Positions 1,573 to 11,621 of a stretch of DNA of 22,339 nucleotides are shown in pieces. How positions within the stretch are numbered: the stretch's first letter is position 1; the number at the start of each line of letters is the position of its first letter. The position numbers and the translations under genes were made by a program. The DNA comes from a virus. The notes beneath the pieces were generated by a model. It was not told the DNA's origin. It did no database searches and worked only from the letters and a program-made list of their open reading frames with translations. The stretch lies in IMG/VR virus record IMGVR_UViG_3300034418_004457, positions 1 to 22,339 of that record; one strand, 5' to 3'.

Positions 1573-1578
1573 CCAGAA

Positions 1579-1607: not shown

Positions 1608-1610
1608 GAC

Positions 1611-1636
1611 AAAAAAAAGCCCGCACATGGCGGGCT
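1611..1636 (-). terminator. Rho-independent terminator ending the leftward early operon
   Basis: Read leftward, a perfect 7-bp stem AGCCCGC/GCGGGCT (1618-1624 with 1630-1636) encloses a 5-base loop and is followed by eight consecutive T (1611-1618, sharing the last base of the stem). It lies 43 bases after the stop of the 43-residue acidic protein and before the VRR-NUC gene, so it separates the MoxR/VWA/RHH transcript from the nuclease/polymerase transcript. Confidence 0.9.
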
Positions 1637-1649
1637 ACAATGGAGATAA

Positions 1650-1665
1650 CCTAACAATTGTTAGG
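1650..1665. repeat. Palindrome copy 1 (CCTAACAATTGTTAGG)
   Basis: Exact 16-bp palindrome, extended to a perfect 18 bp (1649-1666). It lies between the last stop codon of the early operon and its terminator. Unlike copies 2-8 it does not precede a start codon on the minus strand, and the GGAGATAAC arm is on the opposite side, as if the element were inverted. Confidence 0.95.
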
Positions 1666-1678
1666 TAGTCTGGATCAG

Positions 1679-1810
1679 TTATTCTTCCTCTTCGTCCTCT
1701 TCTTCATCTAGGTCAAGTTCATCCAACCACCACTTGCGTCCGTAATCTTCATCACCTACGCGGTTCGGGTCATCCGGTATTGTACGCCAATCGTTATACA
1801 CTCTGCCCAT
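1679..1810 (-). CDS. Small acidic protein, 43 aa
   Basis: A short gene that starts at ATG 1810 inside the end of the upstream gene (17-base overlap). AGGAG is placed about six bases before the start. The protein is unrecognised and has a Trp-rich centre (RKWWLDEL) followed by an almost purely acidic tail (DLDEEEDEEEE). Acidic tails of this kind occur in DNA mimics and in proteins that bind basic partners, but nothing else supports either role. It is the last gene before the terminator. The good ribosome binding site and the overlap are the reasons for calling it. Confidence 0.65.
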   Translation of the reverse strand: MGRVYNDWRTIPDDPNRVGDEDYGRKWWLDELDLDEEEDEEEE

Positions 1811-2015
1811 CGTCAGTCTCCTGAATGTCTTTTAATATCTCACGCTTTAATCGCTTGCGATCTTCGGGTGAACAATTCGACACTATACGTATGTCCTTAA
1901 GTCCAAGCTTGTAAGAGCTGGGTTGCCAGTACAGTGCAGCTTCTGGGTCAGTGACAAGCATGTACTGCCACTTCTCCCCGTCAATGTCTAAGTAGAAGGA
2001 TTCACCTTTCATCAT
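1794..2015 (-). CDS. Unknown protein, 73 aa
   Basis: I do not recognise this protein. It begins with beta-prone sequence (SFYLDIDGEKWQYMLV) and ends in a charged helix (PEDRKRLKREILKDIQ). There are two adjacent ATG codons (2015 and 2012). AAGGAG lies four bases before the first and seven before the second, so either may be used. The start overlaps the last codons of the ribbon-helix-helix gene, and its own end overlaps the acidic 43-residue gene, so the three are translationally coupled. Confidence 0.75.
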   Translation of the reverse strand: MMKGESFYLDIDGEKWQYMLVTDPEAALYWQPSSYKLGLKDIRIVSNCSPEDRKRLKREILKDIQETDDGQSV

Positions 2016-2181
2016 CGTTCTCCTTCATTCTCATGTGCATCACCCTAGCCAACGCTTCACGCATGGCTTTGGTGTAGTTAGGTTCTTGTTTGTAAAAGTC
2101 TACTACCTCACGCGGTAACCGCATGTTCACATGAACCAGCGGCTCCTTTCTTTCTGCTTGCTTTCTTTCAACTTCATTCAT
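2002..2181 (-). CDS. Ribbon-helix-helix (CopG/Arc/BrnA-like) DNA-binding protein, 59 aa
   Basis: After a short charged N-terminus come a beta strand (LVHVNMRL, residues 15-22), helix A (PREVVDFYKQ, 23-32), a turn with Asn-Tyr-Thr, and helix B (YTKAMREALARVM, 36-48). This is the ribbon-helix-helix order, and the sequence resembles BrnA-type antitoxins and Arc/CopG repressors. Such proteins dimerise and contact palindromic operators with the paired strands, which makes it the best encoded candidate to bind the palindromes repeated through this operon; that link is inference. I use ATG 2181, which overlaps the upstream stop (ATGAATGA) with TAGGTG upstream, rather than GTG 2190. No obvious toxin partner is adjacent, so a toxin-antitoxin role is not favoured. 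Confidence 0.75.
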   Translation of the reverse strand: MNEVERKQAERKEPLVHVNMRLPREVVDFYKQEPNYTKAMREALARVMHMRMKENDDER

Positions 2182-3055
2182 GATAATCACCTACGAGTAC
2201 AAATAAATCTGGTTTGTCTTTGTAACCTATACCGACAGCAAAAGTCCCATCGTCCAACAGCTTCAACATGCCCAACTGCGATCTCATTTTTGTCGGCATT
2301 TGATCTAGCGGGTACACAGTGTTGTTTCTCCCACTGCGAGCCACGCAATACTCATCGGTAAGCCACACTGCGGTGCTTTGCGAACTTTGTGTTACGCTAG
2401 TAACGACTTCCGCCTCGTCATACGTATCCCTTAGTTTGTCTAAGTCACCCTTAAAGTTTGCTTCCCGCAGTATTGGTTTGTAGTGGTCGAAATTCTGCAT
2501 GATATACGGAGCCAGACACTTTAGAGCAGCCGCGATATCGTTCCATTTGTAACGAGCTTCTCGATCCTCTCTATCCATCCGCCGCCGCATGCCCCTACTA
2601 TGCACTTGCAGTTGTTCAGGTAAACTCAACGGTTTGAAGTAACGCTTAATGTCTTTCCTGAGCTTGGCAGAGGATAAGCTTGCTATATGGTCTTTACGCT
2701 CCATCGCTTTACGTATCTTTTCGTTACGCAACTCCATTGTTTGGTCATATAGATTGATTGTTACCCATCCGACTGTCGTGCCATCCATCAAACAGTTTAC
2801 GTTCGTAACAGCATTGTTATGATTGTCGTCCGTAATCTGCCATTCATAGTGCGGGGGTAAGTCTGATACCGACTCCACAAACAGCCAAGCGATCTGTGCA
2901 TCTGTGTCGAAATCATGCTCCACAGGTTCGCCGTTATTGGCTTGCCTCAAATTTTCATCTAGCCCATGAGTTTCCAAGTAAGCAGTGGAGCCATTTAGCT
3001 CTATGCCCTTACCTGCAAGTATTTCCCTAGCCTCTCTCAAAGTAATATGTTTCAT
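2174..3055 (-). CDS. Unknown phage protein, 293 aa
   Basis: No family recognised. The middle third is rich in basic residues and helical (around RGMRRRMDREDREARYKW). The C-terminal third looks beta-rich, ending DDGTFAVGIGYKDKPDLFVLVGDY. There is no signal peptide or membrane segment. The frame is open to a TTG at 3070, but ATG 3055 follows GGAGGACAC directly and is the clear start. The stop of the upstream gene is only eight bases before this start, and the downstream RHH gene overlaps its end, so it belongs to a five-gene coupled block (3921 down to 1679) that opens at palindrome copy 2. Confidence 0.8.
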   Translation of the reverse strand: MKHITLREAREILAGKGIELNGSTAYLETHGLDENLRQANNGEPVEHDFDTDAQIAWLFVESVSDLPPHYEWQITDDNHNNAVTNVNCLMDGTTVGWVTINLYDQTMELRNEKIRKAMERKDHIASLSSAKLRKDIKRYFKPLSLPEQLQVHSRGMRRRMDREDREARYKWNDIAAALKCLAPYIMQNFDHYKPILREANFKGDLDKLRDTYDEAEVVTSVTQSSQSTAVWLTDEYCVARSGRNNTVYPLDQMPTKMRSQLGMLKLLDDGTFAVGIGYKDKPDLFVLVGDYHE

Positions 3056-3063
3056 GTGTCCTC

Positions 3064-3921
3064 CTACCAATCAAATTGTCCAAGTATCTTGTCTACCTTC
3101 GTTTTCATGTTCTCACGTTGGTAGTCGTACGCTTTCAGCTCTTCGACATCTGCGGATAGCAGCGTTATCTCTAGCTGTTTACGAGCACCCTCCAGTTCAG
3201 GGTCTCCTGTTATGTTCATATGCTTAAGTAAATCGCACAGCTCCTGTGCGTTATCAACGAACGTACTGTGGATGCGTTTCTTAGGCGCATCATCGTCATC
3301 AGTAGCAGCAAGCTTGTCGCTCATGTGCAAGAGTAGACTGTGCAGTTTTTCCCACGGCTTCTTCATTGCTTCGGCTAACTGGTCTTGCACCTCGGCATCG
3401 CAAGCCTCCATTACATCCTTAACCTCTGCATTGTTCGCATCAAGACAGAAGTGCCCGCTTGCAGGTACTGGCTTACACCGATACTTGAACTTGTACCGCG
3501 CAGCGATCTCGCTAGGGTCTGGGTACAGGTCAGGGTTAGCCATCGCGCCCAACTCCTGCATGGCGATTTGTATCTCGCTTGCAAATCTGGGTACGAGTGT
3601 ATTCACAAGCTTGTCGAAATGTGCCTCATGCTTCTTCATTTCCTCCTTCCACTCAAAGAAGTAAGTCATAGGCAGCAGCCTCGCGCCTTGATCCTCCCAC
3701 GGTAGGGTTACTTTGTTGTTCCAAGTCCGTACCTTAGCAGCGTACTTGTTGATCTCGGATGCAAGCGTAGTGCCTGCCATTATGTCCTTCTCTACACGAA
3801 CCGCCATGCTGTTCGCATTGTTAAGCTGAGCCAAACGCTCCGCTTGTTGCTTGTCTTTACGCTCAGTTCCCCAAGTGGAAATGTTCAACGTAACTAGCAT
3901 TGCTCTTTTATGAATACCCAT
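3064..3921 (-). CDS. Unknown protein, 285 aa, next to the MoxR/VWA module
   Basis: A soluble, mostly helical protein with long charged segments; I see no catalytic motif. It opens the block after palindrome copy 2 and follows the ATPase and VWA genes. Phage and plasmid MoxR/VWA clusters often include a helical protein of about this size (DUF3150 is one such family, from memory). Membership is a guess to be tested. The open frame extends upstream through the palindrome to a TTG giving a false leader MLANGDNT; the real start is ATG 3921, preceded by GGAGATAACACT. Confidence 0.8.
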   Translation of the reverse strand: MGIHKRAMLVTLNISTWGTERKDKQQAERLAQLNNANSMAVRVEKDIMAGTTLASEINKYAAKVRTWNNKVTLPWEDQGARLLPMTYFFEWKEEMKKHEAHFDKLVNTLVPRFASEIQIAMQELGAMANPDLYPDPSEIAARYKFKYRCKPVPASGHFCLDANNAEVKDVMEACDAEVQDQLAEAMKKPWEKLHSLLLHMSDKLAATDDDDAPKKRIHSTFVDNAQELCDLLKHMNITGDPELEGARKQLEITLLSADVEELKAYDYQRENMKTKVDKILGQFDW

Positions 3922-3937
3922 AGTGTTATCTCCATTA

Positions 3938-3953
3938 GCTAACAATTGTTAGG
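3938..3953. repeat. Palindrome copy 2 (GCTAACAATTGTTAGG)
   Basis: A 14-bp perfect palindrome core, lying 16 bases ahead of ATG 3921 on the minus strand and 10 bases after the stop at 3964. The segment 3919-3965 matches 6553-6599 (copy 4) at 46 of 47 positions. Confidence 0.95.
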
Positions 3954-3963
3954 TTATCTAGGT

Positions 3964-4209
3964 TTATGATTCAGGCTTGCCTCTCATCTTGCCAAGCCCG
4001 TACAATTCTTCACTCATCAGTTCAAAACGAACTAGTCCTACTTCCGCAGGTGCAAGCTTGTACACATGATGCGTCTCTTCTTTGGTAGACCAGTTGGTCT
4101 TGTGTTCGTAAACCTCGCAACCGCAATCATGTATCATGTTTACAATAGCCCCCGCTTGTTCCGCCTCCATAACGAACTTGCGGTCATTAAACTCAAACAA
4201 TACTTTCAT
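3964..4209 (-). CDS. Unknown protein, 81 aa, coupled to the VWA gene
   Basis: Not recognised. It is small, with a beta-prone start (MKVLFEFNDRKFVMEAE), a central Cys pair (DCGCEV) and a Gly/Lys-rich end. The ATG overlaps the TGA of the VWA/metallopeptidase gene, with GGAGGACAT before it, so it is translated together with that gene. This coupling suggests a small partner of the VWA protein, but only by position. Confidence 0.8.
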   Translation of the reverse strand: MKVLFEFNDRKFVMEAEQAGAIVNMIHDCGCEVYEHKTNWSTKEETHHVYKLAPAEVGLVRFELMSEELYGLGKMRGKPES

Positions 4210-5453
4210 ATGTCCTCCGATACGTTTATCGTCTTACCCACAGGGGCAGTTATCTTTTCCTTGTTTGTGATCATCCACAGAACTGGTGCAGTCCAAGTAC
4301 CCCAATCATATATCTCACCATCAGTCAGCATGATCACCGCATCAGGTTTGATACCTTTCTCCTTCAAGTATTTACATACGCAGTTAGGATCAGTGCCGCC
4401 ACCTCCGTATATATTCATAACGTCAGGAGCATTGGTAAAATTGTCAGCGGTATACTCTTCGTGGAACCCGACACTACCATCCCAATCGATCAAGTGAATC
4501 TTCTCGATGCGTACCATCTTAGCGATAGCCACCATTTCACTTGTTGCTTTGACTAGCCTACCCTTGTGGTGCATTGAGCCGGATGCGTCCCGACAGAACG
4601 CTACCTCTTTGACACTCTCGCCTACCAACGTGGGAAGATAGTCTCCTTGATGCAAGAACCTACGGTTAGGTTTACGCCACGAACTCTCTTGCTTATCAGT
4701 GCATGACATCTGAACAAAGTCTCGAAACTGCCGCTTCCAATTGACTTTGCTTGTGACTAGGTCTTTAAGTCCAAGCTTGTCATGTCCTTCGCCCTGACCT
4801 GCCGCATCGTCCATCTTCTTTGCAGCCATCATGCCTTGCCGTATTGCTTGCTTGACATCGCTTTCCAGTTTCTGGGCTTCCTTCTCGGTCATCTCCTTAG
4901 CGGCTTCCCAATCATGGGCATCGAACCCGCCGCCTCCGGCATCGTCCCCATCACCGGCATCGGTTTCCCCATCGTCGCCCTCTCCGCCTCCACCGTTTTT
5001 GGCTTTGGCTTGCAGGATTCTGAATACCTCCATCACGGTCTTGCCGAGATACTGCTCATCGTACAAACCGACTACCTTTCCGTCCTTACGTGGAAGAGCG
5101 ATAAGTGTCTCTTCCGGGTCGGCCAATACGAGCTTACCGTTAATCCAGTAATCACAAGCGGCGTTAGCCAGCTCGTGGTCGATCTCGTGTAACTTCCTAT
5201 ATACAGATAGATGGCGCGCAGCTTTGTGCATATTCTCGTGGCAGAGAATGAACCCACAGGATTTCTCCGGTTGATCAAAGCTGAACACGAACTCAGGGTT
5301 GTACCACTCGTTGCGGCCATCGGTCATAGCAGTCGGCACGTCCGTAGTTAGATGCGTTTTGCCAAGCATCATCACGCCGCTTAGCCCTACGAACATACGG
5401 CTACGCATCAGGCCGATCTTCACTTTCTTGAACCGTCTTATCGGTGCTTGCAT
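4206..5453 (-). CDS. VWA-like protein with HExxH metallopeptidase motif (MoxR partner)
   Basis: A 415-residue two-domain protein. The N-terminal part has HENMH at 72-76 (HExxH zinc-protease signature) followed by ACDYWING (residues 99-106), where D101 could be a further ligand. This matches the putative metallopeptidase domain (PF13203-like) found with VWA-like DUF2201 proteins (PF09967). A Gly/Asp-rich linker (about 153-177) and a charged helix follow. The C-terminal VWA-like domain has a MIDAS motif DASGS at 289-293, then GGGGTD, then LTDGE. In bacteria this architecture is paired with a MoxR AAA+ ATPase, and such a gene lies directly upstream here. The proposed role is a metal-dependent adaptor or protease working with the ATPase to remodel a target; the phage substrate is unknown. 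The start is ATG 5453; the upstream TTG is a palindrome artefact. Confidence 0.85.
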   Translation of the reverse strand: MQAPIRRFKKVKIGLMRSRMFVGLSGVMMLGKTHLTTDVPTAMTDGRNEWYNPEFVFSFDQPEKSCGFILCHENMHKAARHLSVYRKLHEIDHELANAACDYWINGKLVLADPEETLIALPRKDGKVVGLYDEQYLGKTVMEVFRILQAKAKNGGGGEGDDGETDAGDGDDAGGGGFDAHDWEAAKEMTEKEAQKLESDVKQAIRQGMMAAKKMDDAAGQGEGHDKLGLKDLVTSKVNWKRQFRDFVQMSCTDKQESSWRKPNRRFLHQGDYLPTLVGESVKEVAFCRDASGSMHHKGRLVKATSEMVAIAKMVRIEKIHLIDWDGSVGFHEEYTADNFTNAPDVMNIYGGGGTDPNCVCKYLKEKGIKPDAVIMLTDGEIYDWGTWTAPVLWMITNKEKITAPVGKTINVSEDI

Positions 5454-5469
5454 AGTGTTATCTCCATTA

Positions 5470-5485
5470 GCTAACAATTGTTAGG
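5470..5485. repeat. Palindrome copy 3 (GCTAACAATTGTTAGG)
   Basis: It lies between the ATPase stop (5488) and the start of the VWA gene (5453), with the same spacer and ribosome binding site cassette as copies 2 and 4. Confidence 0.95.
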
Positions 5486-5487
5486 TA

Positions 5488-6555
5488 TTACAGAAGGTCT
5501 TGGTTCTCAGCACACCAGTGAGCGAACGCCTCACACTCGAAAGCGAACTTCATCTTCTTCTTATGCTTGGCTAGGTTAGAGCAGAAGATTGCCTGCCACT
5601 CCAAGTCAACTCTCGCCAAGTATTGAAGTACAGGAGGTAGCGTGTGTTGCTCCACTTTCTCCAACATACCAAAGCTCATTACGGCGATTGCGCCTTCGTC
5701 CTCTGGGACTCTTGCAGTTAAAGGGTTAGCCACAATAGTCTCAAAACGATCAAGGCTGTCTTGGTGACGAATGTAGGAATTCAGGCTCTCCGCAGCAGAG
5801 AAGCCAACCGTACCTTGCATGGCAGCAAGCAGACTTTCTTGGTCGTACTTGTCACGGTTATCAATGATGGTGCATACCTTCTCCAGTGTACGCGGAGAAC
5901 ACACTGCGTTTTGTGGTACGTTCGGATTGAAGATGAACTCGTTACCATCCTGTCCTTCATCGGTATAAGACGCTAGACACTGCGGGTGTTGGTCAACCCA
6001 AGCTAGTGCAACGTGACAGAGATCTTTTAGTACAGCGTAGTTATGTATCCACTCCTCGGCGGTAGGCTTAGCCAACTCCAAGCGGGTGATACGTTGAATG
6101 GTATGAGCTTGCATTGAGTCACCCACACCGTCAGTTTCTAGGTTACCAGTTAGGAAGATATAGGAACCTTCAGGCACTGGCATGTCACCGCATCGGGGAT
6201 TGTCGATCTCGAACATGGGATGCGTCATGTTCTTCACCGGAGTCATGGCTTTGGGCCACTCGTCTAGCATGATTGCAACCGGCTTCCCAGTGTGCAGACC
6301 GAATCGAGCATTGGGATAATAGCGGGTGACCTTCGCTTCATGGTCAATGACCGGCATAGCTACATCGCCCAAGTCCAGATTGGGACAGTCAATGTACGCC
6401 GTCGGGAGTCCAGTCCTTCTGCCTATCTCCTTAAGTATTGCGCTCTTACCAATTCCAGGCTCCCCTACTATGTAGTAACGGATTTGCGGGTTAGCAAGAA
6501 TCTGGTTAACGATCTGCTCGTGGTTCAGCTTTGTTGCGATTTGTACTTCACTCAT
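5488..6555 (-). CDS. MoxR-family AAA+ ATPase
   Basis: A 355-residue single AAA+ module. Walker A is GEPGIGKS (31-38), Walker B is VAIMLDE with D98 and E99, and sensor 1 is FLTGN (134-138). It continues into a DGVGDSMQAHTIQRITRLEL stretch like the pre-finger region of MoxR/AAA_5 proteins paired with VWA proteins. MoxR ATPases form hexameric rings that remodel or insert cofactors into partners through a VWA adaptor, and that adaptor is encoded next. It is the first gene after the internal promoter at 6634-6662. The start is ATG 6555 with GGAGATAACACT upstream; the apparent TTG start comes from the palindrome. A CobS-like ATPase is a related alternative. Confidence 0.88.
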   Translation of the reverse strand: MSEVQIATKLNHEQIVNQILANPQIRYYIVGEPGIGKSAILKEIGRRTGLPTAYIDCPNLDLGDVAMPVIDHEAKVTRYYPNARFGLHTGKPVAIMLDEWPKAMTPVKNMTHPMFEIDNPRCGDMPVPEGSYIFLTGNLETDGVGDSMQAHTIQRITRLELAKPTAEEWIHNYAVLKDLCHVALAWVDQHPQCLASYTDEGQDGNEFIFNPNVPQNAVCSPRTLEKVCTIIDNRDKYDQESLLAAMQGTVGFSAAESLNSYIRHQDSLDRFETIVANPLTARVPEDEGAIAVMSFGMLEKVEQHTLPPVLQYLARVDLEWQAIFCSNLAKHKKKMKFAFECEAFAHWCAENQDLL

Positions 6556-6571
6556 AGTGTTATCTCCATTA

Positions 6572-6587
6572 GCTAACAATTGTTAGG
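6572..6587. repeat. Palindrome copy 4 (GCTAACAATTGTTAGG)
   Basis: It lies 16 bases ahead of the ATPase start. The TAA stop of the small upstream gene (6583-6585) is inside the palindrome. It is in the predicted leader of the transcript from the promoter at 6634-6662. Confidence 0.95.
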
Positions 6588-6729
6588 TTATCTTGGTTTG
6601 TTTACGGGTTTTGGATACAACTTTTATTGTACTATTATATAACATTGTGGTACGAATTTCAACAGATGTACGGATACCTCTGCCGTAATCGAGTACCGGC
6701 TTATGCTTACTTTGTTTGTACCTAAGCAT
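6583..6729 (-). CDS. Small basic protein, 48 aa
   Basis: A short gene with an excellent GGGAGG ribosome binding site five bases before ATG 6729; its first base is the last base of the upstream stop codon (TAATG). The product is Lys/Arg/Thr-rich, with no acidic residue except D14 and E24, and is unrecognised. A near-consensus promoter lies inside its coding sequence on the same strand, and its stop codon lies inside palindrome copy 4. The segment may therefore be kept partly as a regulatory leader for the ATPase operon. Confidence 0.55.
   Translation of the reverse strand: MLRYKQSKHKPVLDYGRGIRTSVEIRTTMLYNSTIKVVSKTRKQTKIT
6634..6662 (-). promoter_or_regulatory. Strong leftward sigma70-like promoter before the MoxR/VWA block
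   Basis: On the minus strand TTGAAA (6657-6662), a spacer of exactly 17 bases, then a perfect TATAAT (6634-6639). Transcription should start near 6627 and give a leader of about 70 bases containing palindrome copy 4. The spacer contains GTACCACAATG (6643-6653), also present at the rightward promoter candidate near 10272. Confidence 0.75.
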
Positions 6730-6971
6730 TAGTCCTCCCAATATGATCTAAGCTTTAAATAATTACGTGCCCGTTCTGAGCTACTTTTGGTTACTTCCTT
6801 AACTACAATGAACCCAAGCTTACTGGCGAAAAACCTACGCCTTCGTTTGTGTTCGTCCATTGATACACCGAGAAGCACTGGCCCCTCTATGTCCTCCACG
6901 TAGTAAGGCACATTGTTATGGCGAAACACAGAACCCAAGTCCACTACCGAACCGTCTTTGCGTTTGATCAT
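6729..6971 (-). CDS. Unknown protein, 80 aa
   Basis: No family recognised. It is a small basic protein, beta-prone in the first half (RKDGSVVDLGSVF, PVLLGVSMDE), with an Arg cluster (KRRRRFF) around residue 45. The start overlaps the stop of the 306-residue gene as ATGA. The only purine-rich ribosome site (GAGGAA) is rather far upstream, so its translation probably depends on coupling. Confidence 0.75.
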   Translation of the reverse strand: MIKRKDGSVVDLGSVFRHNNVPYYVEDIEGPVLLGVSMDEHKRRRRFFASKLGFIVVKEVTKSSSERARNYLKLRSYWED

Positions 6972-7888
6972 CTGAAATATTCCTCGTTAGGGTCTTTAGC
7001 TACAATGCCAAGCGGTGCATCCACTTCATCGAATATCTCGTCGCGGTACGCCAGTTTAATGCTCTCGCGCACTCTTGCTCGAACTGCTTGGATGGGCATC
7101 TTCCAGTTTGCGGTATACTGGCCGTTGACCCATTTCCTGTCATGTGTAGCAGCATTGGCAAAGTAGAATCTCACCAGATCGCCCCAACCTTCCTTGTTCT
7201 CCACGTCCTTCATAACATCGCAGCGTTTTAGCTCAGCGTACTGGCCTACGTGCTTCCAACGATCCCGAACCCAACGACGATTCGGCTCCCTCAGTTCATG
7301 TTCCACGCTCATAAAAGAGTCTGGGTCTACGATCTTATGTAAAGCGGAGAGGTGCTTTATGAATGGGTCGAACTGTTTGTATATCTCCGCAGCCTTAGAT
7401 GTATTTATTAGGTGCTTCTTAATAGGCCACGGTTCTGGCGGAGTCATGCCTCCATCTTCTAGCTTAAATATTAAGCTCGCGCCGTCTGGTATGTACCAAG
7501 ACTGGTTGTTCTTACGGTCGTGTACGTAACACTTGTTATCAGTAGTGTGCATCGTGCAGTGGTAAGGCAGCAGACTAGAAGCAAACCCACACGTTGAGTT
7601 GCTTGGATAAGAGTTGTTCACCTCCACGTATCCATTCTCGGTGTAGGTCAACACGTCTGTATCGTACAGACGGCAAGCAATGGCTCTAACCGGTTCGCCT
7701 CCGGATTGGGGGAAGCTCATAACCGCGTGCCAGATACTGTAGTGCGTTTTCTTGCGTCCATTTTCTGTGTTGCACAGCGGACGCAGTCCGGCGTTCTTGC
7801 CTCTGGTTAAGGGCTTAACAGAATCATAGTGACTCTTGGCACTACGATAGCCGTCCAACATAGGGAAATCAGTAAAGTTATTAAACAT
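6968..7888 (-). CDS. Unknown phage protein, 306 aa
   Basis: No family I can name. It is a soluble protein rich in aromatic and His residues, with several Cys scattered rather than paired, a PPEPWPIKKH segment in the middle and an Arg-rich helix near the end (VRARVRESIKLAYRDE). It opens a three-gene block after palindrome copy 5, with GGAGATTCACT before ATG 7888. Length and isolation suggest an early protein acting on the host or on phage DNA, but there is no motif to support a choice. Confidence 0.78.
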   Translation of the reverse strand: MFNNFTDFPMLDGYRSAKSHYDSVKPLTRGKNAGLRPLCNTENGRKKTHYSIWHAVMSFPQSGGEPVRAIACRLYDTDVLTYTENGYVEVNNSYPSNSTCGFASSLLPYHCTMHTTDNKCYVHDRKNNQSWYIPDGASLIFKLEDGGMTPPEPWPIKKHLINTSKAAEIYKQFDPFIKHLSALHKIVDPDSFMSVEHELREPNRRWVRDRWKHVGQYAELKRCDVMKDVENKEGWGDLVRFYFANAATHDRKWVNGQYTANWKMPIQAVRARVRESIKLAYRDEIFDEVDAPLGIVAKDPNEEYFR

Positions 7889-7903
7889 AGTGAATCTCCA
7901 TTA

Positions 7904-7919
7904 CCTAACAATTGTTAGC
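7904..7919. repeat. Palindrome copy 5 (CCTAACAATTGTTAGC)
   Basis: It precedes ATG 7888. The TAA stop codon of the upstream membrane protein (7915-7917) is part of the palindrome. Confidence 0.95.
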
Positions 7920-8091
7920 CTATCAGGAACATAATTACGGTGAAGGCCCAGAACACTGAAACCATAACTACACCACCGACAACTATTCTGGTTACGGTCA
8001 TAAACACACTCTCCTCTTCATCAGCCCATTTGTGCTGATTGTGCGGATCATGCACGTTAAAGCTCTCGCGGAAGTTATCCTGCTCGTTCAT
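7915..8091 (-). CDS. Small membrane protein, 58 aa, one C-terminal transmembrane segment
   Basis: A polar, charged N-terminal half (residues 1-35) is followed by one long hydrophobic stretch from about 36 to 57 (VVGGVVMVSVFWAFTVIMF), then the end of the protein. It has no cleavable signal peptide, so it should be tail-anchored with the N-terminus in the cytoplasm. The start is ATG 8091 behind AGAGGAGAACAACA; the frame continues eight codons upstream, but that part contains the ribosome binding site. It could be an inner-membrane effector of early infection. A holin is possible from size but unlikely in an early, leftward position. Confidence 0.75.
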   Translation of the reverse strand: MNEQDNFRESFNVHDPHNQHKWADEEESVFMTVTRIVVGGVVMVSVFWAFTVIMFLIG

Positions 8092-8111
8092 TGTTGTTCT
8101 CCTCTGATGGG

Positions 8112-8336
8112 TCAAAAGCGACCAGTATGTTCTCTGGCATAAAATAAACCGGCTAGTTTCAACTGGTTTATTGCCGCCTCTATGTTGCCAATGGCTGTAT
8201 GGTAGTAATGTGGTGCAAATGTCGCAGACTCAATCCGACCACTTAGACTTGGACTTTCATCGTCTCCAAACAATAGAGACTCCTGAAACTCCTCCAAAGC
8301 TTTAACGGCTTCATCTATATCTTCATATGTTTTCAT
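8112..8336 (-). CDS. Unknown protein, 74 aa
   Basis: Not recognised; acidic and mostly helical (DIDEAVKALEEFQESLLF, IGNIEAAINQLKLAGLFYA). The ATG at 8336 overlaps the stop of the 165-residue gene as ATGA, with GGAG upstream inside that gene. A longer open frame to 8390 is not supported. It is translated with its upstream neighbour and followed 20 bases later by the small membrane protein. Confidence 0.75.
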   Translation of the reverse strand: MKTYEDIDEAVKALEEFQESLLFGDDESPSLSGRIESATFAPHYYHTAIGNIEAAINQLKLAGLFYAREHTGRF

Positions 8337-8830
8337 GCTTCGTCCATCTCCTTCATTATCTTGTAGACAAGGGCCTGTAGCTTGACCCACGAAATGCCAA
8401 CGTACTCATTGTCGGCGGTGATCTCGAAACCATCGTCCTTTAGGGCTAGCTCCTTAAGCCTAACGACCATAGTCCGCGCCCGTCTGTGGGTAGTCACCTG
8501 ATTGAATGCAGCTAGCGCACCCAAGTCGGGCATTTTGATATCGCCCAAGTCTAGGTCTGGGGTCTCATGAGTGGGAGGCACTGGGGTCATGTTCGTCTTG
8601 GCAATATCTAACGGCCTCGCTTTTGTGATGGTCTCGTTAATCAGCTTGTCTATTTCCTCGGTGAATTGAGCATGCTCCTTCTCGATTTGCTTCTTCCTGC
8701 GTCCTTCCTGCATCCTGTCTACACGCGCCTTGCGCTCCGCGTCTGTCATATTATTCCAGTGGTTAATATTGTTGACGGAAGCTTGCAGTGCAAATTGCTT
8801 GGTCTTACGACCGTCTTTCTTCTTAGTCAT
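8333..8830 (-). CDS. Unknown coiled-coil protein, 165 aa
   Basis: A strongly basic N-terminus (TKKKDGRKTKQ) and a charged helix likely to form a coiled coil (about residues 30-70, EGRRKKQIEKEHAQFTEE) precede a Pro-rich linker. A second domain contains THRRARTMVVRL and ends in a helix. No known family comes to mind. The start is ATG 8830 with GGAGATACTACA, directly after palindrome copy 6; the apparent TTG start inside the palindrome is rejected. Confidence 0.75.
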   Translation of the reverse strand: MTKKKDGRKTKQFALQASVNNINHWNNMTDAERKARVDRMQEGRRKKQIEKEHAQFTEEIDKLINETITKARPLDIAKTNMTPVPPTHETPDLDLGDIKMPDLGALAAFNQVTTHRRARTMVVRLKELALKDDGFEITADNEYVGISWVKLQALVYKIMKEMDEA

Positions 8831-8846
8831 TGTAGTATCTCCAAGA

Positions 8847-8862
8847 CCTAACAATTGTTAGG
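8847..8862. repeat. Palindrome copy 6 (CCTAACAATTGTTAGG)
   Basis: Here the symmetry extends to a perfect 20-bp palindrome (8845-8864). It sits before ATG 8830 and contains the TAA stop (8858-8860) of the upstream CxxC protein. Confidence 0.95.
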
Positions 8863-9094
8863 TCGTTCGCTTAGGGTTTGATTGCTTGAGAATGTTACGC
8901 GCATCGTCATGGCTGTAAGCCTGATACGCAGTTTTGCCCATGCATAATATGGGCAGTTCGTGCCGAACATCGCGGTGAGTATGCTTCGCACAATTGATAC
9001 AGTAATCAAAGTGCTTGGCCCGCTCGGCAGGATACAGTTGGTCGCAAAACACGCATGGTGTCTCGGACAATAGATGTTGTTTGACCTTGCTCAT
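8858..9094 (-). CDS. Putative zinc-ribbon protein, 78 aa
   Basis: Two Cys pairs, CVFC (14-17) and CINC (32-35), 14 residues apart and flanked by basic residues and His, give a compact zinc-ribbon or zinc-finger outline. The C-terminal half is polar. Such mini-proteins are frequent among early phage genes and often bind nucleic acids or host polymerase; the actual target is unknown. The start ATG 9094 overlaps the stop of the upstream gene as ATGA. The same frame is open to 9202, but that part overlaps the real upstream gene and is not used. Confidence 0.7.
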   Translation of the reverse strand: MSKVKQHLLSETPCVFCDQLYPAERAKHFDYCINCAKHTHRDVRHELPILCMGKTAYQAYSHDDARNILKQSNPKRTT

Positions 9095-9369
9095 CGGTGG
9101 TTGATCCAATGAAGGCGGTTGTAGCAGTGTTTGGGAAGTAAGTAGCGGTGGTGGTTGTTGACCACTCTGCGGCCATTCAAAGCACAGACACTGTTGACCC
9201 ATGTGTCACGGTCATAGCCTGCAATTGACTGGGAACGCCCAAGCGGAGGACGCTTATTGAATGAACGCCTAGTGTGGCCGTAGAGTGTAAGTGCGTATAC
9301 GCAACGAATGAGGGTCGCGCATCGGTCACCCATAGATGGGTCAAAGTTTAAGGCTTTGTACTTAATCAT
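9091..9369 (-). CDS. Unknown basic protein, 92 aa
   Basis: Not recognised. It is rich in Arg, His, Asn and Cys (four Cys, not in CxxC pairs) and strongly basic overall, with no predicted membrane segment. It begins at ATG 9369 behind GGAGATTCACT in the same cassette as the other palindrome-led genes, and its end overlaps the zinc-ribbon gene. Two reading frames are open across 9091-9202. I assign that stretch to this gene because it has the cassette start. Confidence 0.65.
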   Translation of the reverse strand: MIKYKALNFDPSMGDRCATLIRCVYALTLYGHTRRSFNKRPPLGRSQSIAGYDRDTWVNSVCALNGRRVVNNHHRYLLPKHCYNRLHWINHR

Positions 9370-9384
9370 AGTGAATCTCCATTA

Positions 9385-9400
9385 CCTAACAATTGTTAGC
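9385..9400. repeat. Palindrome copy 7 (CCTAACAATTGTTAGC)
   Basis: It precedes ATG 9369 with the same spacer and ribosome binding site as copy 5. The TAG stop of the upstream 46-residue gene (9401-9403) abuts it. Confidence 0.95.
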
Positions 9401-9541
9401 CTATCGACCAACGTGAAAACGAACGAAAGTAGAAATGTCAGTACCGACACGAGCATGCTCGATCAACCAAGTGCGCGGCCATACTGCGGTTAGCAAGCGT
9501 GTAGATTGCTTGCGCGTATCCATCAGAAAAGTAAATCGCAT
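9401..9541 (-). CDS. Small basic protein, 46 aa; first gene of the leftward early operon
   Basis: A short gene starting at ATG 9541 with GGAGACGCACT, in the same palindrome-led cassette as seven other starts, about 90 bases after the leftward promoter at 9632-9660. The product is unrecognised, basic (several Arg), with a hydrophobic/aromatic centre (AVWPRTWLIEHARV). The position right behind the promoter suggests very early expression. It ends immediately before palindrome copy 7. The cassette and the lack of any other explanation for it support the call; no homology is visible. Confidence 0.6.
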   Translation of the reverse strand: MRFTFLMDTRKQSTRLLTAVWPRTWLIEHARVGTDISTFVRFHVGR

Positions 9542-9556
9542 AGTGCGTCTCCATTA

Positions 9557-9572
9557 CCTAACAATTGTTAGG
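9557..9572. repeat. Palindrome copy 8 (CCTAACAATTGTTAGG)
   Basis: A perfect 18-bp palindrome (9556-9573), located in the leader between the leftward early promoter and the first gene (ATG 9541). Confidence 0.95.
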
Positions 9573-9631
9573 TTATCCAGATTGTTGTGGCGTTATTGCC
9601 CGTAACTCCATCTTACCGTTTTTTTATTACC

Positions 9632-9660
9632 ATTGTACCACAAAGTTATAGGAATTGCAA
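9632..9660 (-). promoter_or_regulatory. Leftward early promoter
   Basis: On the minus strand TTGCAA (9655-9660), exactly 17 bases, then TACAAT (9632-9637), preceded by TGG, which also gives an extended -10. The start should be near 9625, with a leader of about 85 bases that includes palindrome copy 8 before the first ATG. GTACCACAA (9635-9643, plus strand) overlaps the -10. Confidence 0.75.
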
Positions 9661-9705
9661 GCCGAGTCAGGATAGGTATCCGGAAAGTTATGAGAGTAAA
9701 GTTAT

Positions 9706-9736
9706 AATGTTACGGAAAAGGGCTGTAATGTTATGG
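9706..9736. repeat. AATGTTAYGG direct repeats
   Basis: AATGTTACGG (9706-9715) and AATGTTATGG (9727-9736) start 21 bases apart in the same orientation. A third copy is in the left arm of the inverted repeat (9812-9820) and a reversed one in the right arm (9922-9930). The spacing of two helical turns for the first pair is iteron-like. Confidence 0.6.
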
Positions 9737-9803
9737 GGGGCATAACGGCGTGGTACAGGCTGAAGCCCAGATGTGGCGTGGGTTTGAGACGAATGTGTAT
9801 TGT

Positions 9804-9938
9804 ATTGTTATAATGTTATGAGAAAATAAGAATAAGAGAGATATAGAGAGGAGAGGGAACTTCCTGTGCTTACATACGCAGAGAGGCCCGTCCTATCCCT
9901 CTCTAAGATTAGTTTTTTGGGCATAACATTATAACAAT
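9804..9938. repeat. 17-bp perfect inverted repeat flanking a purine-rich stretch
   Basis: ATTGTTATAATGTTATG (9804-9820) recurs exactly in reverse complement at 9922-9938. The 101 bases between begin with a run of almost only A and G (9820-9858) and contain a 7-bp hairpin AGAGAGG/CCTCTCT (9880-9904). Each arm contains TATAAT, so the arms could also be outward or inward -10 elements; on the minus strand the right arm has TTATCA 17 bases before TATAAT. Confidence 0.7.
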
Positions 9939-10017
9939 AGGTCTTTTGCCTGATAAATCAAGCAGTTACGGCGTAACAAAGCAAAAACCAAAACGTAACA
10001 ACGTAACAATACCTTTT

Positions 10018-10154
10018 CGTGGGCTTCCATCCCCTTCGTAACTATCATGTCCATAACTCTGTATCCACAAGACCTAACAATTGTTAGCTAATCCGGACGC
10101 GTTACGCGGTGTCTGGATGCGATGCGTGGGCTTCCGTCCCCTTAATTACTATCA
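10018..10154. repeat. Duplicated 30-bp segment
   Basis: 10018-10047 and 10125-10154 match at 26 of 30 positions and have the same orientation, each on the left side of a palindrome (copies 9 and 10). Read leftward, both could encode a related short peptide (IVTKGMEAH and IVIKGTEAH), so they look like two relics of one palindrome-led small gene. Confidence 0.65.
10073..10088. repeat. Palindrome copy 9 (CCTAACAATTGTTAGC)
   Basis: It lies inside the control region. On its left a degenerate version of the usual cassette (TTGTGGATACAGAGTTATG) precedes a weak 41-codon open frame. Confidence 0.95.
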
Positions 10155-10170
10155 CCACCCCGATTTTCGC

Positions 10171-10191
10171 TCTGGATCGAATCGATCCAGA
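10171..10191. repeat. 21-bp inverted repeat (10-bp arms, 1-base centre)
   Basis: TCTGGATCGA and TCGATCCAGA are exact reverse complements around one A. It abuts palindrome copy 10. TCTGGAT/ATCCAGA also recurs beside copies 1, 8 and 11, so it may be a second part of the same element. Confidence 0.8.
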
Positions 10192-10194
10192 CGA

Positions 10195-10210
10195 CCTAAC
10201 AATTGTTAGG
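10195..10210. repeat. Palindrome copy 10 (CCTAACAATTGTTAGG)
   Basis: The symmetry extends over 26 bases (10190-10215) with a single mismatched pair, the longest arm of all copies. It lies about 60 bases upstream of the rightward promoter candidate. Confidence 0.95.
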
Positions 10211-10259
10211 TCATCGCCAGACGGCATAATTATCACCGGACAAAAAAATCAGAAAAAGT

Positions 10260-10277
10260 GTACCACAATGATATGAT
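10260..10277 (+). promoter_or_regulatory. Rightward extended -10 promoter candidate
   Basis: TGATATGAT gives an extended -10 (TG at 10269-10270, TATGAT at 10272-10277). There is no good -35 at 17 bases. Immediately upstream is GTACCACAATG (10260-10270), the same 11 bases found in the spacer of the leftward promoter at 6634-6662. It would transcribe the gene at 10344. Confidence 0.45.
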
Positions 10278-10343
10278 GACTACGTCAGCACCAAAACTAA
10301 CCGGCCTCGCTGACGGGCCAACTATGTCCGAGGAGGACACACT

Positions 10344-11114
10344 ATGGAAAACGTAACAAAGACCAACAACTCACAGACCCTTGTTTCTACCACTTACACC
10401 ATTACCGCCGGTGACGTGACCGACCTAATGAAAAACTTGATGGCACTGGGAGCAGACGCCTCACAGGAACAACTGGCAGAAGTAGTGAACGGTCGCGCGT
10501 TGAAGGAGATTTGCGCTGTAAGCAATCTAGGCGAGAGCATATCAGGCAGCGCCGAGCGCGCAGTAGCCGCCGCCTTGAACGTGCTTCTGCCACCGGCAAG
10601 AGCTGCCCAGTACAGCGCTGACGATGATTACGCCGGCTGTGTCGGATGGTTTACCAGTGAGCACGGAGACAAGGATAAAATGGCCAAGGATTTGGCCCCA
10701 CACAAGAAGGAGATTTTCGCGGCATGGAAACACTCTAGCAACGTGAGCACGAAGTACAAGCGGGTCCGGCGATACGGCGCCGAGCTTGCGTATACTGACC
10801 TATACACACTGGAGGAGCGCGACCAACACCGCGCCGAACTGATCGCCGAGACTGGCGAGACTGGCGAGACTGGCGAGAGCGAAGGCGGCAAGCCTAGCCG
10901 CAACCGCGACTTGTACGAGCGCAGCATATGCGAAGGCGGCGCTTTGTATCGCGCTCTGACTAGCACGACCAACAATGACATAATCAAGAAACACCCGAAG
11001 TCGGAAGAGCTTACCGGCTTTCTGGAGCACTTGACCAGAGCTCTGACGGCAGCCGGCGCGCCGCTTGAAGATGACGAACTGGTAGCGCTGATGAAGCAAC
11101 TCGCCAAACGCTAA
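10344..11114 (+). CDS. Unknown protein, 256 aa; lone rightward gene beside the control region
   Basis: Not recognised. It is rich in Ala, Glu, Leu and Arg and mostly helical. The central segment has a basic patch (STKYKRVRRYGAEL) and a short tandem repeat ETGETGETGES, encoded by three exact copies of GAGACTGGC (10848-10874). The C-terminal part (PLEDDELVALMKQLAKR) is helical. The start ATG 10344 follows GAGGAGGACACACT. By eye it is more GC-rich than its neighbours. It is the only gene with its own promoter candidate and terminator, and it is transcribed away from the early operon, a typical arrangement for a regulator or an abundantly made early protein. No helix-turn-helix is evident, so the regulator idea is unproven. 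Confidence 0.85.
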   Translation: MENVTKTNNSQTLVSTTYTITAGDVTDLMKNLMALGADASQEQLAEVVNGRALKEICAVSNLGESISGSAERAVAAALNVLLPPARAAQYSADDDYAGCVGWFTSEHGDKDKMAKDLAPHKKEIFAAWKHSSNVSTKYKRVRRYGAELAYTDLYTLEERDQHRAELIAETGETGETGESEGGKPSRNRDLYERSICEGGALYRALTSTTNNDIIKKHPKSEELTGFLEHLTRALTAAGAPLEDDELVALMKQLAKR

Positions 11115-11133
11115 GCAACACTTAGCGCAACCG

Positions 11134-11164
11134 AGCGCGGCCCTCACCGGCCGCGCTTTTTTTT
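11134..11164 (+). terminator. Strong rho-independent terminator after the lone rightward gene
   Basis: A 9-bp perfect GC-rich stem AGCGCGGCC/GGCCGCGCT (11134-11142 with 11149-11157), a 6-base loop, and a run of eight T (11157-11164). It starts 20 bases after the stop codon at 11114. Confidence 0.93.
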
Positions 11165-11189
11165 GTCCCGCTGAAACGCAACCGGATGA

Positions 11190-11205
11190 CCTAACAATTG
11201 TTAGT
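11190..11205. repeat. Palindrome copy 11 (CCTAACAATTGTTAGT)
   Basis: The rightmost copy, just after the terminator. Flanking GGAT/ATCC extends the symmetry to a near-palindrome of 28 bases. No gene start follows on either strand; no further copy exists in the head module. Confidence 0.93.
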
Positions 11206-11621
11206 TGATCCAGACCCCGTCCCGCAAAGCCCGCAGCACCCGCTTAGCCAGACCCCACCCTACCCCCACCCCCCGAAATCAGGGAAAATGCTACCCAGGC
11301 TCATTACTTACTAATATGCACAAACAATCACAAAGTTTGACAAACTCAATAAATAAACCTAATTAAATCAACAACTTACCCCCACCCCCTTTTTCCTGTA
11401 CCCATCTGGCTCGCACCCCACCCCCCTAAACACAGGAAACCCCCCCGTCAATGGAACCAAAACAATGAAAAACGTGGTACCGTATATCAAACTCCCCCCT
11501 CGCTCCTTGAGGTTTTGCCCTTGGCACGTAGTTTGTGTACAAGGGCTTTTTTTGTAAGCTTGCCAAGCACATAGAAACTCTTTACGCTACGCATACTCCG
11601 GTATCCATACCTGCGAATTTT
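11206..11621. other. Intergenic stretch before the terminase genes
   Basis: About 415 bases without a supported gene. It has several C-runs and an A-rich stretch. A perfect TTGACA (11337-11342), within the small inverted repeat GTTTGACAAAC, has no matching -10 at 16-18 bases. A GGTACC near 11478 is preceded by AACGTG. A terminator lies at 11517-11553. After it, TTGCCA (11560-11565), 17 bases, TACGCT is the only weak promoter candidate for the late genes. I see no tRNA. Confidence 0.5.
11517..11553 (+). terminator. Second rightward terminator before the terminase genes
   Basis: GCCCTTG (11517-11523) pairs with CAAGGGC (11540-11546) across a 16-base loop that can add a CAC/GTG pairing, followed by seven T (11547-11553). 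Together with the terminator at 11134 it insulates the head module from upstream transcription, or could be a site for antitermination. Confidence 0.7.

Follow-up and report, generated by a model that had tools for sequence, protein, structure and literature searches.

The analysed window, which comprises a whole IMG/VR virus record of 22,339 bases, contains 11 exact copies of CTAACAATTGTTAG, and these palindromes are probably the DNA operators of a dimeric phage regulator encoded at 10344-11114, which would control the leftward early operon. The putative binding protein is most likely a phage regulator of a family that has not yet been described. The sequence-only reading of this DNA had proposed either an operator bound by a dimer or an RNA hairpin; the former is supported by the presence of a putative cognate gene between two of the copies and by the joint change of operator and gene across lineages. 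Because the window is the complete record, the description of the array covers this fragment only.

All copies are located in the leftward early region and at the regulator locus (Table 1), and no exact copy is present among the head genes to the right of 11204. Allowing up to three mismatches adds a single match, at 7526 within gene 6968-7888; in dinucleotide shuffles of the window, such matches average 1.3 and never exceed 4. The invariant part of the repeat is the 14-bp core, a perfect palindrome with symmetric half-sites. The 16-mer CCTAACAATTGTTAGG, whose starts were used as positions in the sequence-only reading and lie one base before those of the core, is exact in only four of the 11 copies (1650, 8847, 9557 and 10195). 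According to a home-made gene caller every copy is intergenic, three of them overlapping the stop codon of the upstream ORF (ORF ends 6583, 7915 and 8858). Seven copies (3939 to 9558) are followed by a minus-strand ATG, 16–17 bp from the palindrome end, with GGAGA in between, such that the ribosome site (SD) lies outside the palindrome. At the other minus-strand junctions between 1679 and 9541 the genes overlap or are separated by short gaps of 8 bp (3055/3064) and 20 bp (8091/8112), and the four copies at 1651, 10074, 10196 and 11191 are not found at an SD-ATG. The number of copies, their absence from the head genes, their intergenic placement and the tight coupling at the other early junctions are thus as the sequence-only reading had described them.

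Table 1. Palindrome copies, genes and promoter- or terminator-like elements in the window.
Feature	Position	Strand	Context
Palindrome copy 1 (operator-like)	1651..1664		3' end of operon, ahead of terminator-like hairpin 1636-1618 (-)
Palindrome copy 2	3939..3952		17 bp before start of gene 3064-3921 (-)
Palindrome copy 3	5471..5484		17 bp before start of DUF2201/VWA gene 4206-5453 (-)
Palindrome copy 4	6573..6586		17 bp before AAA ATPase gene 5488-6555 (-); overlaps upstream ORF stop
Palindrome copy 5	7905..7918		16 bp before gene 6968-7888 (-); overlaps upstream stop
Palindrome copy 6	8848..8861		17 bp before gene 8333-8830 (-); overlaps upstream stop
Palindrome copy 7	9386..9399		16 bp before start of gene 9091-9369 (-)
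Palindrome copy 8	9558..9571		16 bp before ORF 9401-9541 (-); 60 bases downstream of promoter-like 9660-9632 (-)
Palindrome copy 9	10074..10087		non-coding, upstream of regulator gene 10344-11114
Palindrome copy 10	10196..10209		134 bases upstream of regulator ATG
Palindrome copy 11	11191..11204		beyond terminator-like hairpin 11133-11158 of regulator gene
Candidate cognate regulator	10344..11114	+	family F25, 256 aa, between copies 10 and 11
Early gene p3064	3064..3921	-	
Early gene, DUF2201 metallopeptidase/VWA	4206..5453	-	
Early gene, AAA ATPase	5488..6555	-	phrog_1297
Sigma70-like promoter	6634..6662	-	TTGAAA-N17-TATAAT, ~48 bp upstream of copy 4; 11/12 positions
Sigma70-like promoter	9632..9660	-	TTGCAA-N17-TACAAT with TGTGGTACAAT, upstream of copy 8; 9/12 positions
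Terminator-like hairpin with T run	1618..1636	-	end of leftward block
Terminator-like hairpin with T run	11133..11158	+	after regulator gene

Uncultivated relatives show the same layout, with a repeat that is near-uniform within a genome and differs by lineage: CTAACA-N0..2-TGTTAG, CTGACA-N2, CCTAGA-N3, CCTACA-N3, CATTGA-N4, GTACGG-N3, ATAGGA-N2 and TGTAGT-N4, and GGTTCA-N3 in Pag-Yong1. When 37 records were examined de novo, 28 were found to carry a gapped inverted repeat in three or more exact copies (up to 19), against a maximum of 1–3 copies in the three order-1 random sequences generated for each record; G014 and HTVC023P, with three copies each, are marginal. In G008 the genes p2174, p3064, VWA and AAA are present, yet no repeated inverted repeat was found. 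The repeat families show little extension past the core. Eight records with an assigned motif are 40 kb or longer; in six of them the exact sites are confined to 13–21% of the record, and they span 3% in G005 (three copies) and 83% of the 50 kb analysed of Pag-Yong1. Site spacing is more even than random in five of the 12 records tested and not in the other seven. In 13 of 16 records the AAA gene has a site no more than 80 bp upstream; other sites are found ahead of terminators or beside the regulator, and with one mismatch allowed 9/17 sites in G004 and 10/22 in G009 fall inside predicted genes. The proposal that the palindrome marks the start of each translationally coupled block therefore holds in the window and at several junctions in relatives, but not for about half of the G004 and G009 sites, nor for those at terminators or regulator flanks. 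The refuting conditions named in the sequence-only reading give a mixed outcome: the positions are conserved among relatives, but the core also occurs inside genes in some of them.

Operator and flanked gene differ together between close relatives. L134 and G002 are 95% identical in TerL, 91% in TerS, 88% in p3064, 85% in VWA and 82% in AAA; despite this, matching gene starts carry CATTGA-N4-TCAATG in L134 and GTACGG-N3-CCGTAC in G002, which are unrelated palindromes, and the palindrome-flanked genes show no similarity at E 1e-3. G002 and L136 have a common operator, and their flanked genes are 85% identical. CTAACA-N0..2-TGTTAG is present in 34 of the 36 contigs found with an F92 alignment (1–18 copies; five contigs with one), and the remaining two, the most divergent, contain nine copies of CTGACA-N2-TGTCAG. 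Among 78 loci selected by TerL, CTAACA sites occur in 17 of the 22 with a match to the F25 profile and in none of the 56 without, many of which could not show the locus because they extend for under 1500 bases upstream of TerS (39 of the 55 that lack an F25 match and have a TerS match). These comparisons support the view that operator and flanked gene have changed together, with site positions kept. Covariation by itself does not identify the regulator, since the linked early genes track operator identity equally well (AUC 0.84 for p3064, 0.87 for VWA and 0.84 for AAA, against 0.84 for the flanked gene).

The families F25, F92 and A5 are related according to hhalign (E 2.9e-7, 1.7e-6 and 2.9e-5), and F25 has no convincing Pfam, PHROG or PDB relative. 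A PDB sequence search gives one match for F25 (E 0.74) and none for F92 at E<1; HTH_37 is matched by one of 20 F25 members (E 0.087), and no HTH family is matched at E 0.1 by any of 25 F92 members. In both predicted models the conserved residues are located on two consecutive helices, which in the F25 protein comprise residues 112–127 and 134–153 around a conserved SNxST...RxRxxG motif. A structural search with the predicted helix pair returned a best Z of 6.6, within background and without a convincing match, so that 'helix-turn-helix' is to be taken as a reading of the model. Neither the flanked gene in G002 and G001 nor its counterpart in G003 and L158 is detected by the F25, F92 and A5 profiles, and no regulator candidate was identified in Pag-Yong1. 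Further observations count against the preferred assignment: F25 and F92 proteins are very dissimilar, yet have one half-site in common; the variation of the spacer from 0 to 2 bp between lineages is unusual for one dimer geometry; and the nearest upstream site is 134 bases from the regulator ATG.

If the palindromes are operators, the F25 regulator would be made from its own rightward unit and, probably as a dimer, bind all 11 sites, thereby controlling, and most likely repressing or shutting off, the leftward early operon. It is probably autoregulated, as its gene sits between copies 10 and 11. Control may be exerted close to promoters and also within the operon, where a dimer sitting on its site could form a putative roadblock to elongating RNA polymerase and influence timing. 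As the sites lie at translational breaks (before an SD-ATG or before terminators), polymerase could be stopped there without a ribosome pushing from behind. This putative mode of action, deduced from sequence, resembles that of the stoperators of L5-like mycobacteriophages.

The same placement would suit an mRNA hairpin just 5' of the ribosome site, serving processing, stability or translational control through an RNA-binding phage protein. Seven copies directly precede GGAGA-ATG on the coding strand and one precedes a terminator-like hairpin; the sequence can fold into a hairpin (mean -6.0 kcal/mol for the window, -13.4 for G002), and lineage-specific sequence is also compatible with a sequence-specific RNA binder. 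However, across 239 sites in 23 records, pairing between the flanking arms is below that of re-paired arms at each of the eight positions, clearly at three. Of 131 sites with a single mismatch, 6 retain a G-T pair, and at the outer position no change is less frequent than C>T. Ten seemingly compensatory outer pairs were observed where 2.3 were expected, but they come mostly from one conserved stretch that is unrelated to the array (7/8 G-C cases). Moreover, spacers of zero to two bases would give loops of differing size, about half of the G004 and G009 sites lie within predicted genes, and copies 10 and 11 appear to be outside the inferred transcript of the regulator. Neither flank pairing nor wobble-preserving variants thus lend support to the RNA alternative, which is considered rather unlikely. 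A dispersed, REP/MITE-like repeat that spreads or persists by recombination and has no regulatory role would account for many near-identical, largely intergenic short palindromes, but it is very improbable given the scant extension past the core, the near-constant offset to SD-ATG in the window and the different sequences that close relatives carry at corresponding positions.

Other explanations accept a DNA site and differ in its binder or function. The operators may be real and be bound by the product of another early-module gene (e.g., p3064) or by a host protein, while the flanked gene does something else; this is unlikely. Homologs of p3064, VWA and AAA are all present in the 15 chosen palindrome-bearing records and in none of the four without palindrome, and they track the operator as well as the flanked gene does. 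On the other hand, in L134 and G002 these three proteins remain 82–88% identical despite unrelated operators, whereas the flanked gene is replaced; G008 has all three without a detected repeat; and a host protein cannot explain differing operators at 95% TerL identity unless the hosts differ. A role in DNA replication, packaging, partition or genome compaction, through the same or another phage protein, seems improbable. Transcription is the better fit for several features: the sites keep to the early operon and the regulator locus in six of eight long records, they are placed at gene starts and terminators, and some have promoter-like motifs 36–52 bases upstream. In favour of the non-transcriptional role, the sites are symmetric and mostly away from promoters, and a function in transcription was deemed unlikely by the authors describing the comparable repeats of Cluster O (PMC4351075).

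The statement that no phage system with this layout is known needs qualification, as repeats in mycobacteriophages of Clusters O, A and K are comparable in part. Outside phages, KorA and KorB of IncP plasmids are global repressors with about a dozen symmetric operators across one replicon; unlike F25, they are known HTH/ParB-type proteins, and they act on a plasmid. The account of Cluster O describes 34 copies in Corndog of a 17-bp repeat, TGTTCGG-N3-CCGAACA, one sequence across all five genomes, suggested as sites for a dimeric protein that is left unassigned there (PMC4351075). The likeness extends to symmetric, near-invariant half-sites, an A/T-rich centre and a location mainly in the non-structural operon. 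In that description the intergenic repeats of Corndog are mostly in the leftward region, with others within genes, and are not closely linked to start codons (PMC4351075), whereas here many copies abut an SD-ATG, the sequence differs by lineage and a flanked candidate regulator is identified. The Cluster O sequence has no match among 302 loci.

Cluster A phages (L5, Bxb1) have 20–30 repressor sites along the genome, with a consensus that varies with the repressor by lineage; one site close to the repressor gene has been suggested to serve autoregulation, as presented in PMC6550527. As in the window, many copies of one site are distributed along operons, mostly away from promoters. Stoperators are, however, described as bound by a monomeric repressor (PMC9283540) and as asymmetric and mostly oriented with transcription, unlike the perfect 14-bp palindromes of the window; Cluster A phages are temperate, whereas no Phage_integrase or Resolvase match was found in 14 records, many of which are fragments; and the F25 protein has no convincing Pfam or PDB relative. 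The Cluster K SAS/ESAS elements occur only among non-structural genes and are linked to translation starts, about half having imperfect inverted repeats upstream (PMC3203893); their role is still unverified according to PMC12699233. As described, the SAS is asymmetric and includes the ribosome site, its end lying a few bp short of the start codon, whereas the window palindrome leaves the SD outside. The ESAS consists of imperfect 17-bp repeats with a 4–13 bp spacer in most sites, and the sections of PMC3203893 drawn on here name no cognate protein, in contrast to the candidate regulator proposed for the window.

In the accounts cited, repressor sites spread along a genome come mainly from temperate mycobacteriophages; here such arrays occur in a family of environmental phages without detected integrase. 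The lineage comparison points to one candidate for the binding protein and to about ten putative protein-operator pairs. If these pairs hold, concerted operator change at conserved positions would allow the evolution of operator specificity to be measured, and the pairs themselves would supply a ready set of orthogonal regulators. A wider reading is tentative but quite possible: the proteins may represent a new superfamily of phage DNA-binding proteins, exerting stoperator-like control of early operons in virulent phages, whose lineages swap the whole operator-regulator set, i.e., 8–19 operators over ~10 kb plus the regulator gene, with intervening genes up to 88% identical. If true, this would amount to immunity-like specificity in the absence of lysogeny, and the concerted change of many dispersed operators would need explanation.

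Promoter-like matches in the region (13) are not above shuffles (mean 14.2), and terminator-like matches number 12 versus a shuffle mean of 11.0. A promoter-like match (9–11 of 12 positions) lies just upstream of three of the seven gene-start copies (2, 4 and 8). Seven exact TGTGGTACAAT motifs, from five of 14 records, are all on the same strand as, and 36–52 bases upstream of, a palindrome. At the regulator locus, a second inverted repeat (10172-10190) adjoins palindrome copy 10.

The palindrome CTAACAATTGTTAG occurs in eleven exact copies within 1651-11204 of the window and is absent from the head-gene half, as the sequence-only reading had stated. Its further claims, that copies 2-8 are tied to gene starts and that three copies overlap an upstream stop codon, are likewise borne out, each of these seven copies lying 16-17 bp ahead of a minus-strand ATG with GGAGA in between. 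None of copies 1, 9, 10 and 11 is a gene-start site. In the 22 arms the half-site extends outward as GTTAG-G-T-n-A-T, with T in 90% of arms at outward position 2 and in 100% at position 5. The window, which is an entire short virus record, gave no match in a megablast search against 50,697 phage records; its terminase subunit TerL is 50-58% identical to the TerL proteins of Phage DSL-LC04, 023Pt_psg01, HTVC027P, HTVC023P and Planktothrix phage Pag-Yong1.

Palindromes and promoter-like motifs of the window, and inverted repeats of its relatives (G and L numbers, records or loci of uncultivated relatives)
Feature	Record	Position or context	Remark
Palindrome copy 1	window	1651	5' of terminator-like hairpin
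Palindrome copies 2-8	window	3939, 5471, 6573, 7905, 8848, 9386, 9558	gene-start sites
Palindrome copies 9 and 10	window	10074, 10196	upstream of rightward gene 10344-11114
Palindrome copy 11	window	11191	past terminator-like hairpin of gene 10344-11114
TTGAAA-N17-TATAAT	window	about 48 bp upstream of copy 4	promoter-like
TTGCAA-N17-TACAAT	window	60 bases upstream of copy 8	promoter-like
TTGGCA-N18-AATCAT	window	upstream of copy 2	promoter-like, weaker
CTAACA-N2-TGTTAG	window, G007, G015, G016, G018, G019, G029, L007, L075, L109
CTAACA-N1	G004, G009, G012		5-19 copies
CTAACA-N0	G013, L169
TGTAGT-N4-ACTACA	G001
GTACGG-N3-CCGTAC	G002
ATAGGA-N2-TCCTAT	G003, G011
CATTGA-N4-TCAATG	L134
GGTTCA-N3-TGAACC	Pag-Yong1		19 copies
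CCTACA-N3-TGTAGG	L131, L133, L141		from TerL loci
CCTAGA-N3-TCTAGG	L150		from TerL loci
TTTAGG-N5-CCTAAA	L158		from TerL loci
ATAACA-N1-TGTTAT	L149		5 copies; from TerL loci

If the palindrome acted as an RNA stem, bases beyond the core would be expected to pair with each other more often inside one site than across different sites. At each of the eight flank positions, less pairing was observed than expected from re-paired arms (239 sites, 23 records). With near-identical contigs kept, a G-T pair is retained in only 6 of 131 single-mismatch sites and, among changes at the outer position, C>T was seen 8 times, less often than C>A (49) and C>G (19). An apparent excess of compensatory outer pairs (10 versus 2.3 expected) was discarded, being mostly one conserved stretch unconnected with the array. 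The RNA hairpin that had been offered as an alternative is thus supported neither by flank pairing nor by wobble-preserving mismatches or compensatory outer pairs. The palindrome centre is A/T-rich (AA/TT 174 and AT 66 among 289 two-base centres), and the combined pattern of mismatches, flanks and centre fits independent half-sites that would be read in duplex DNA.

Among the palindrome matches listed, many IMG/VR contigs contain the 14-mer of the window multiple times, often in the same SD-ATG or terminator surroundings; some of the multi-copy contigs, e.g. L019, look unrelated. Of the records initially retrieved through the palindrome, ten were tested, and seven of these carry a homolog of the window TerL. 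Gapped inverted repeats (half-site 6, spacer 0-8) were counted de novo in 37 records, with three order-1 random sequences per record as control (highest count 1-3). In 28 of the 37 an inverted repeat with at least three exact copies was found, the sequence of which is not always that of the window. Exact seeds revealed no clear repeat in DSL-LC04, HTVC027P, 023Pt_psg01, HTVC023P, G006, G010 and G020, all of which are likewise without the module of early genes from p2174 to p6968; the count covered the first 50 kb of HTVC027P, 023Pt_psg01 and HTVC023P, the last of which has 3 copies of one repeat versus up to 2 in random sequences. G014, with 3 copies, was also counted as lacking a clear repeat. 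In G008 the early genes p2174 and p3064, the DUF2201/VWA gene (VWA) and the ATPase gene (AAA) are present, yet neither exact nor looser seeds detected a repeat. With the looser seed, CTTAC-N4-GTAAG was found six times in the TerL relative L203, where no gene of the candidate regulator families (F25, F92, A5) was detected within 1-8800. G013 (L243, L244) carries a second inverted repeat, GGCACC-N3-GGTGCC, in 12 copies besides CTAACATGTTAG, and at L194 4400-4614 CTAGGCACTGGTGCCTAG occurs three times, spaced about 90-110 bp.

Eight records with an assigned motif measure 40 kb or more; in six of them the exact sites are confined to 13-21% of the record, comprising the early module and the regulator locus. 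As to the remaining two, the 3 copies of G005 fall within 3% of the record, and the sites of Pag-Yong1 are spread over 83% of the 50 kb examined; by-hand comparison with the annotation places 12 of its 19 exact sites between genes, 2 across a CDS 3' end and 5 within a CDS. With four operator-like sequences represented in each case, a site is located at most 80 bp upstream of AAA in 13 of 16 records; for p3064 the figure is 9 of 16. The idea that positions stay intergenic in relatives holds in so far as placement at gene starts recurs, but about half of the sites in G004 (9 of 17) and G009 (10 of 22) fall within predicted genes, with one mismatch allowed and genes called by a custom script that missed some small ones. 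Several of these intragenic sites occupy places of the conserved p3064, VWA and AAA genes that correspond between the two phages. Gene starts are therefore favoured, not required. In 5 of the 12 records tested for spacing, sites are more regularly distributed than expected at random (P 0.004-0.013); 7 show no such regularity.

The gene lying between palindrome copies, 10344-11114 in the window, is the candidate regulator. Its family, F25, has members in 14 records including the window, several of them fetched by the palindrome, and all 14 have CTAACA half-sites; G007 contains two copies. The flanked gene belongs to F92 in G019, G029 and L109 and to A5 in L134 and L150; A5 genes are also found in L131, L133, L141 and others. 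Profile comparison with hhalign links F25 to F92 (probability 93%, E 2.9e-7), F25 to A5 (90%, 1.7e-6) and F92 to A5 (74%, 2.9e-5), over the N-terminal part up to HSNPSTxWxRIRKYG-like (F25), KPTIDVYWQRVKEASG (F92) and NFDQRWKYxK-like (A5) stretches. A search with the F92 alignment yielded 36 contigs, 9 of which had previously been fetched by the palindrome; CTAACA-N0..2-TGTTAG is present in 34, five of these with a single copy. The two F92 contigs whose protein diverges most (34% identity), with SNIDKIWQRVKEASG at the corresponding helix, have nine copies of CTGACA-N2-TGTCAG. Two nearby F25-like genes were observed at G007 57052-58701 and L193 50-1370, and in L193 CGTTAC-N3-GTAACG sites flank the second one on both sides.

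A search with TerL gave 80 loci, of which 78 (L126-L203) were counted, L054 and L059 being left out because they had been fetched by the palindrome itself. CTAACA sites are present in 17 of 22 loci with an F25-profile match and in 0 of 56 without, a contrast that is weaker than it appears because, of the 55 F25-less loci with the terminase subunit TerS, 39 extend upstream of it by under 1500 bases. Near-identical contigs (e.g. L164/L165/L166/L174, L301/L302) were kept in the contig counts, which therefore do not represent independent events. The five F25-positive loci without CTAACA include L198, scored as a miss, where the looser seed finds CTAAC-N3-GTTAG six times, L149 with its ATAACA-N1-TGTTAT repeat, and L132, an F25-profile match of A5 type.

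The swap between L134 and G002 argues most strongly for a reading of the operator-like sites by the flanked gene. These are 95% identical in TerL, 91% in TerS, 88% in p3064, 85% in VWA, 82% in AAA, 75% in p6968 and 59% in p2174, and carry unrelated palindromes at corresponding starts of p3064, VWA, AAA and p6968. At a cut-off of E 1e-3 their flanked genes (L134 7072-7575 and G002 19101-19895) do not resemble each other; a handful of small genes, too, are found in only one of the two. G002 and L136 have the same palindrome and flanked genes that are 85% identical. Covariation with operator identity gave AUC values of 0.84-0.87 for the flanked gene, p3064, VWA and AAA, versus 0.77 for p2174, 0.64 for p6968, 0.56 for TerL and 0.51 for TerS; in a separate 44-record set the regulator reached 0.73 versus 0.57 for TerL. 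Since, over a wider set, operator identity is followed equally well by the linked early genes, linkage of the whole module contributes to this tracking, and covariation was rejected as proof of a trans factor, the flanked gene performing no better than p3064, VWA and AAA. The case for a putative regulator is based on where the gene lies, on presence/absence and on comparing L134 with G002.

In AlphaFold models of one F25 and one F92 protein (pLDDT 81 and pTM 0.57 each), the conserved residues sit on two successive helices, 112-127 and 134-153 in F25 and 64-83 and 88-101 in F92. Foldseek with the F92 model against the PDB returned nothing at E 1e-3 or below, and VIA-align gave Z values of at most 6.6 (F92) and 6.1 (F25), within background for helical models; for these predicted structures no known fold is claimed and none excluded. 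PDB sequence searches gave no F92 match at E<1 and one F25 match (0.74). The best matches in Pfam (F92, E 0.0089, DUF4225, 2 of 25 members; F25, 0.022, 1 of 20) and PHROGs (F92, E 0.0054, 2 of 25; F25, 0.021, 2 of 20) are not convincing. One pattern scan across 84,980 species genomes confirmed no relative of F92, and tblastn queries with a single protein of each of F92 and F25 confirmed none in the phage collection. Literature searches, covering open-licence papers, listed no paper apparently describing either the arrays or the protein family.

Promoter-like matches as a whole are not above shuffles (13 versus a mean of 14.2). Among 14 records of relatives, 5 contain TGTGGTACAAT, seven times in all and always 36-52 bases upstream of a same-strand palindrome; most remaining palindrome copies have no promoter-like motif close by. 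Where such a motif exists, the palindrome would lie in the 5' leader and not on the promoter. This placement and the motif-less copies favour a roadblock along the operon, possibly in the manner of stoperators, over plain occlusion of initiation. The bracketing of the regulator gene by operator-like sites would fit autoregulation. In 14 records, many of them fragments, neither integrase nor resolvase was detected, which would make early shut-off or competition against co-infecting relatives a likelier purpose than lysogeny. As far as the available parts of the sources describe them, the closest site architecture is that of Cluster O mycobacteriophages, to whose repeat no binding protein is assigned there (PMC4351075), and the closest proposed mode of action is that of the Cluster A stoperators, which also have lineage-specific sites but are asymmetric, unlike the palindromes here (PMC6550527); association with start codons is shared with the Cluster K SAS/ESAS, again as described in the available parts (PMC3203893, PMC12699233). 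Each of these systems has one or more defining features that the array lacks, and the array is classed as a variation on distributed phage operators.

Some further features of the window were observed. In the non-coding region 9600-10060, GTTATAATGTTA-like stretches are repeated at 9696-9719 and 9802-9825, and this region could be an origin or promoter cluster; AATGTTACG-like repeats lie close to palindromes in some relatives. A 30-bp direct repeat (CGTGGGCTTCC.TCCCCTT; 87% identical) is located at 10018-10047 and 10125-10154, with copy 9 between the two. C-rich repeats (CACCCTACCCCCACCCCC and variants) at 11256-11440, left of the TerS-like gene 11535-12251, mark a possible packaging region. 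The small protein encoded at 8858-9202 (-) has a weak DksA-like zinc-finger match (phrog_54, E 0.0077). The DUF2201 metallopeptidase/VWA protein adjoins the AAA ATPase (4206-6555), and both are present in 15 of 15 chosen palindrome-bearing records.
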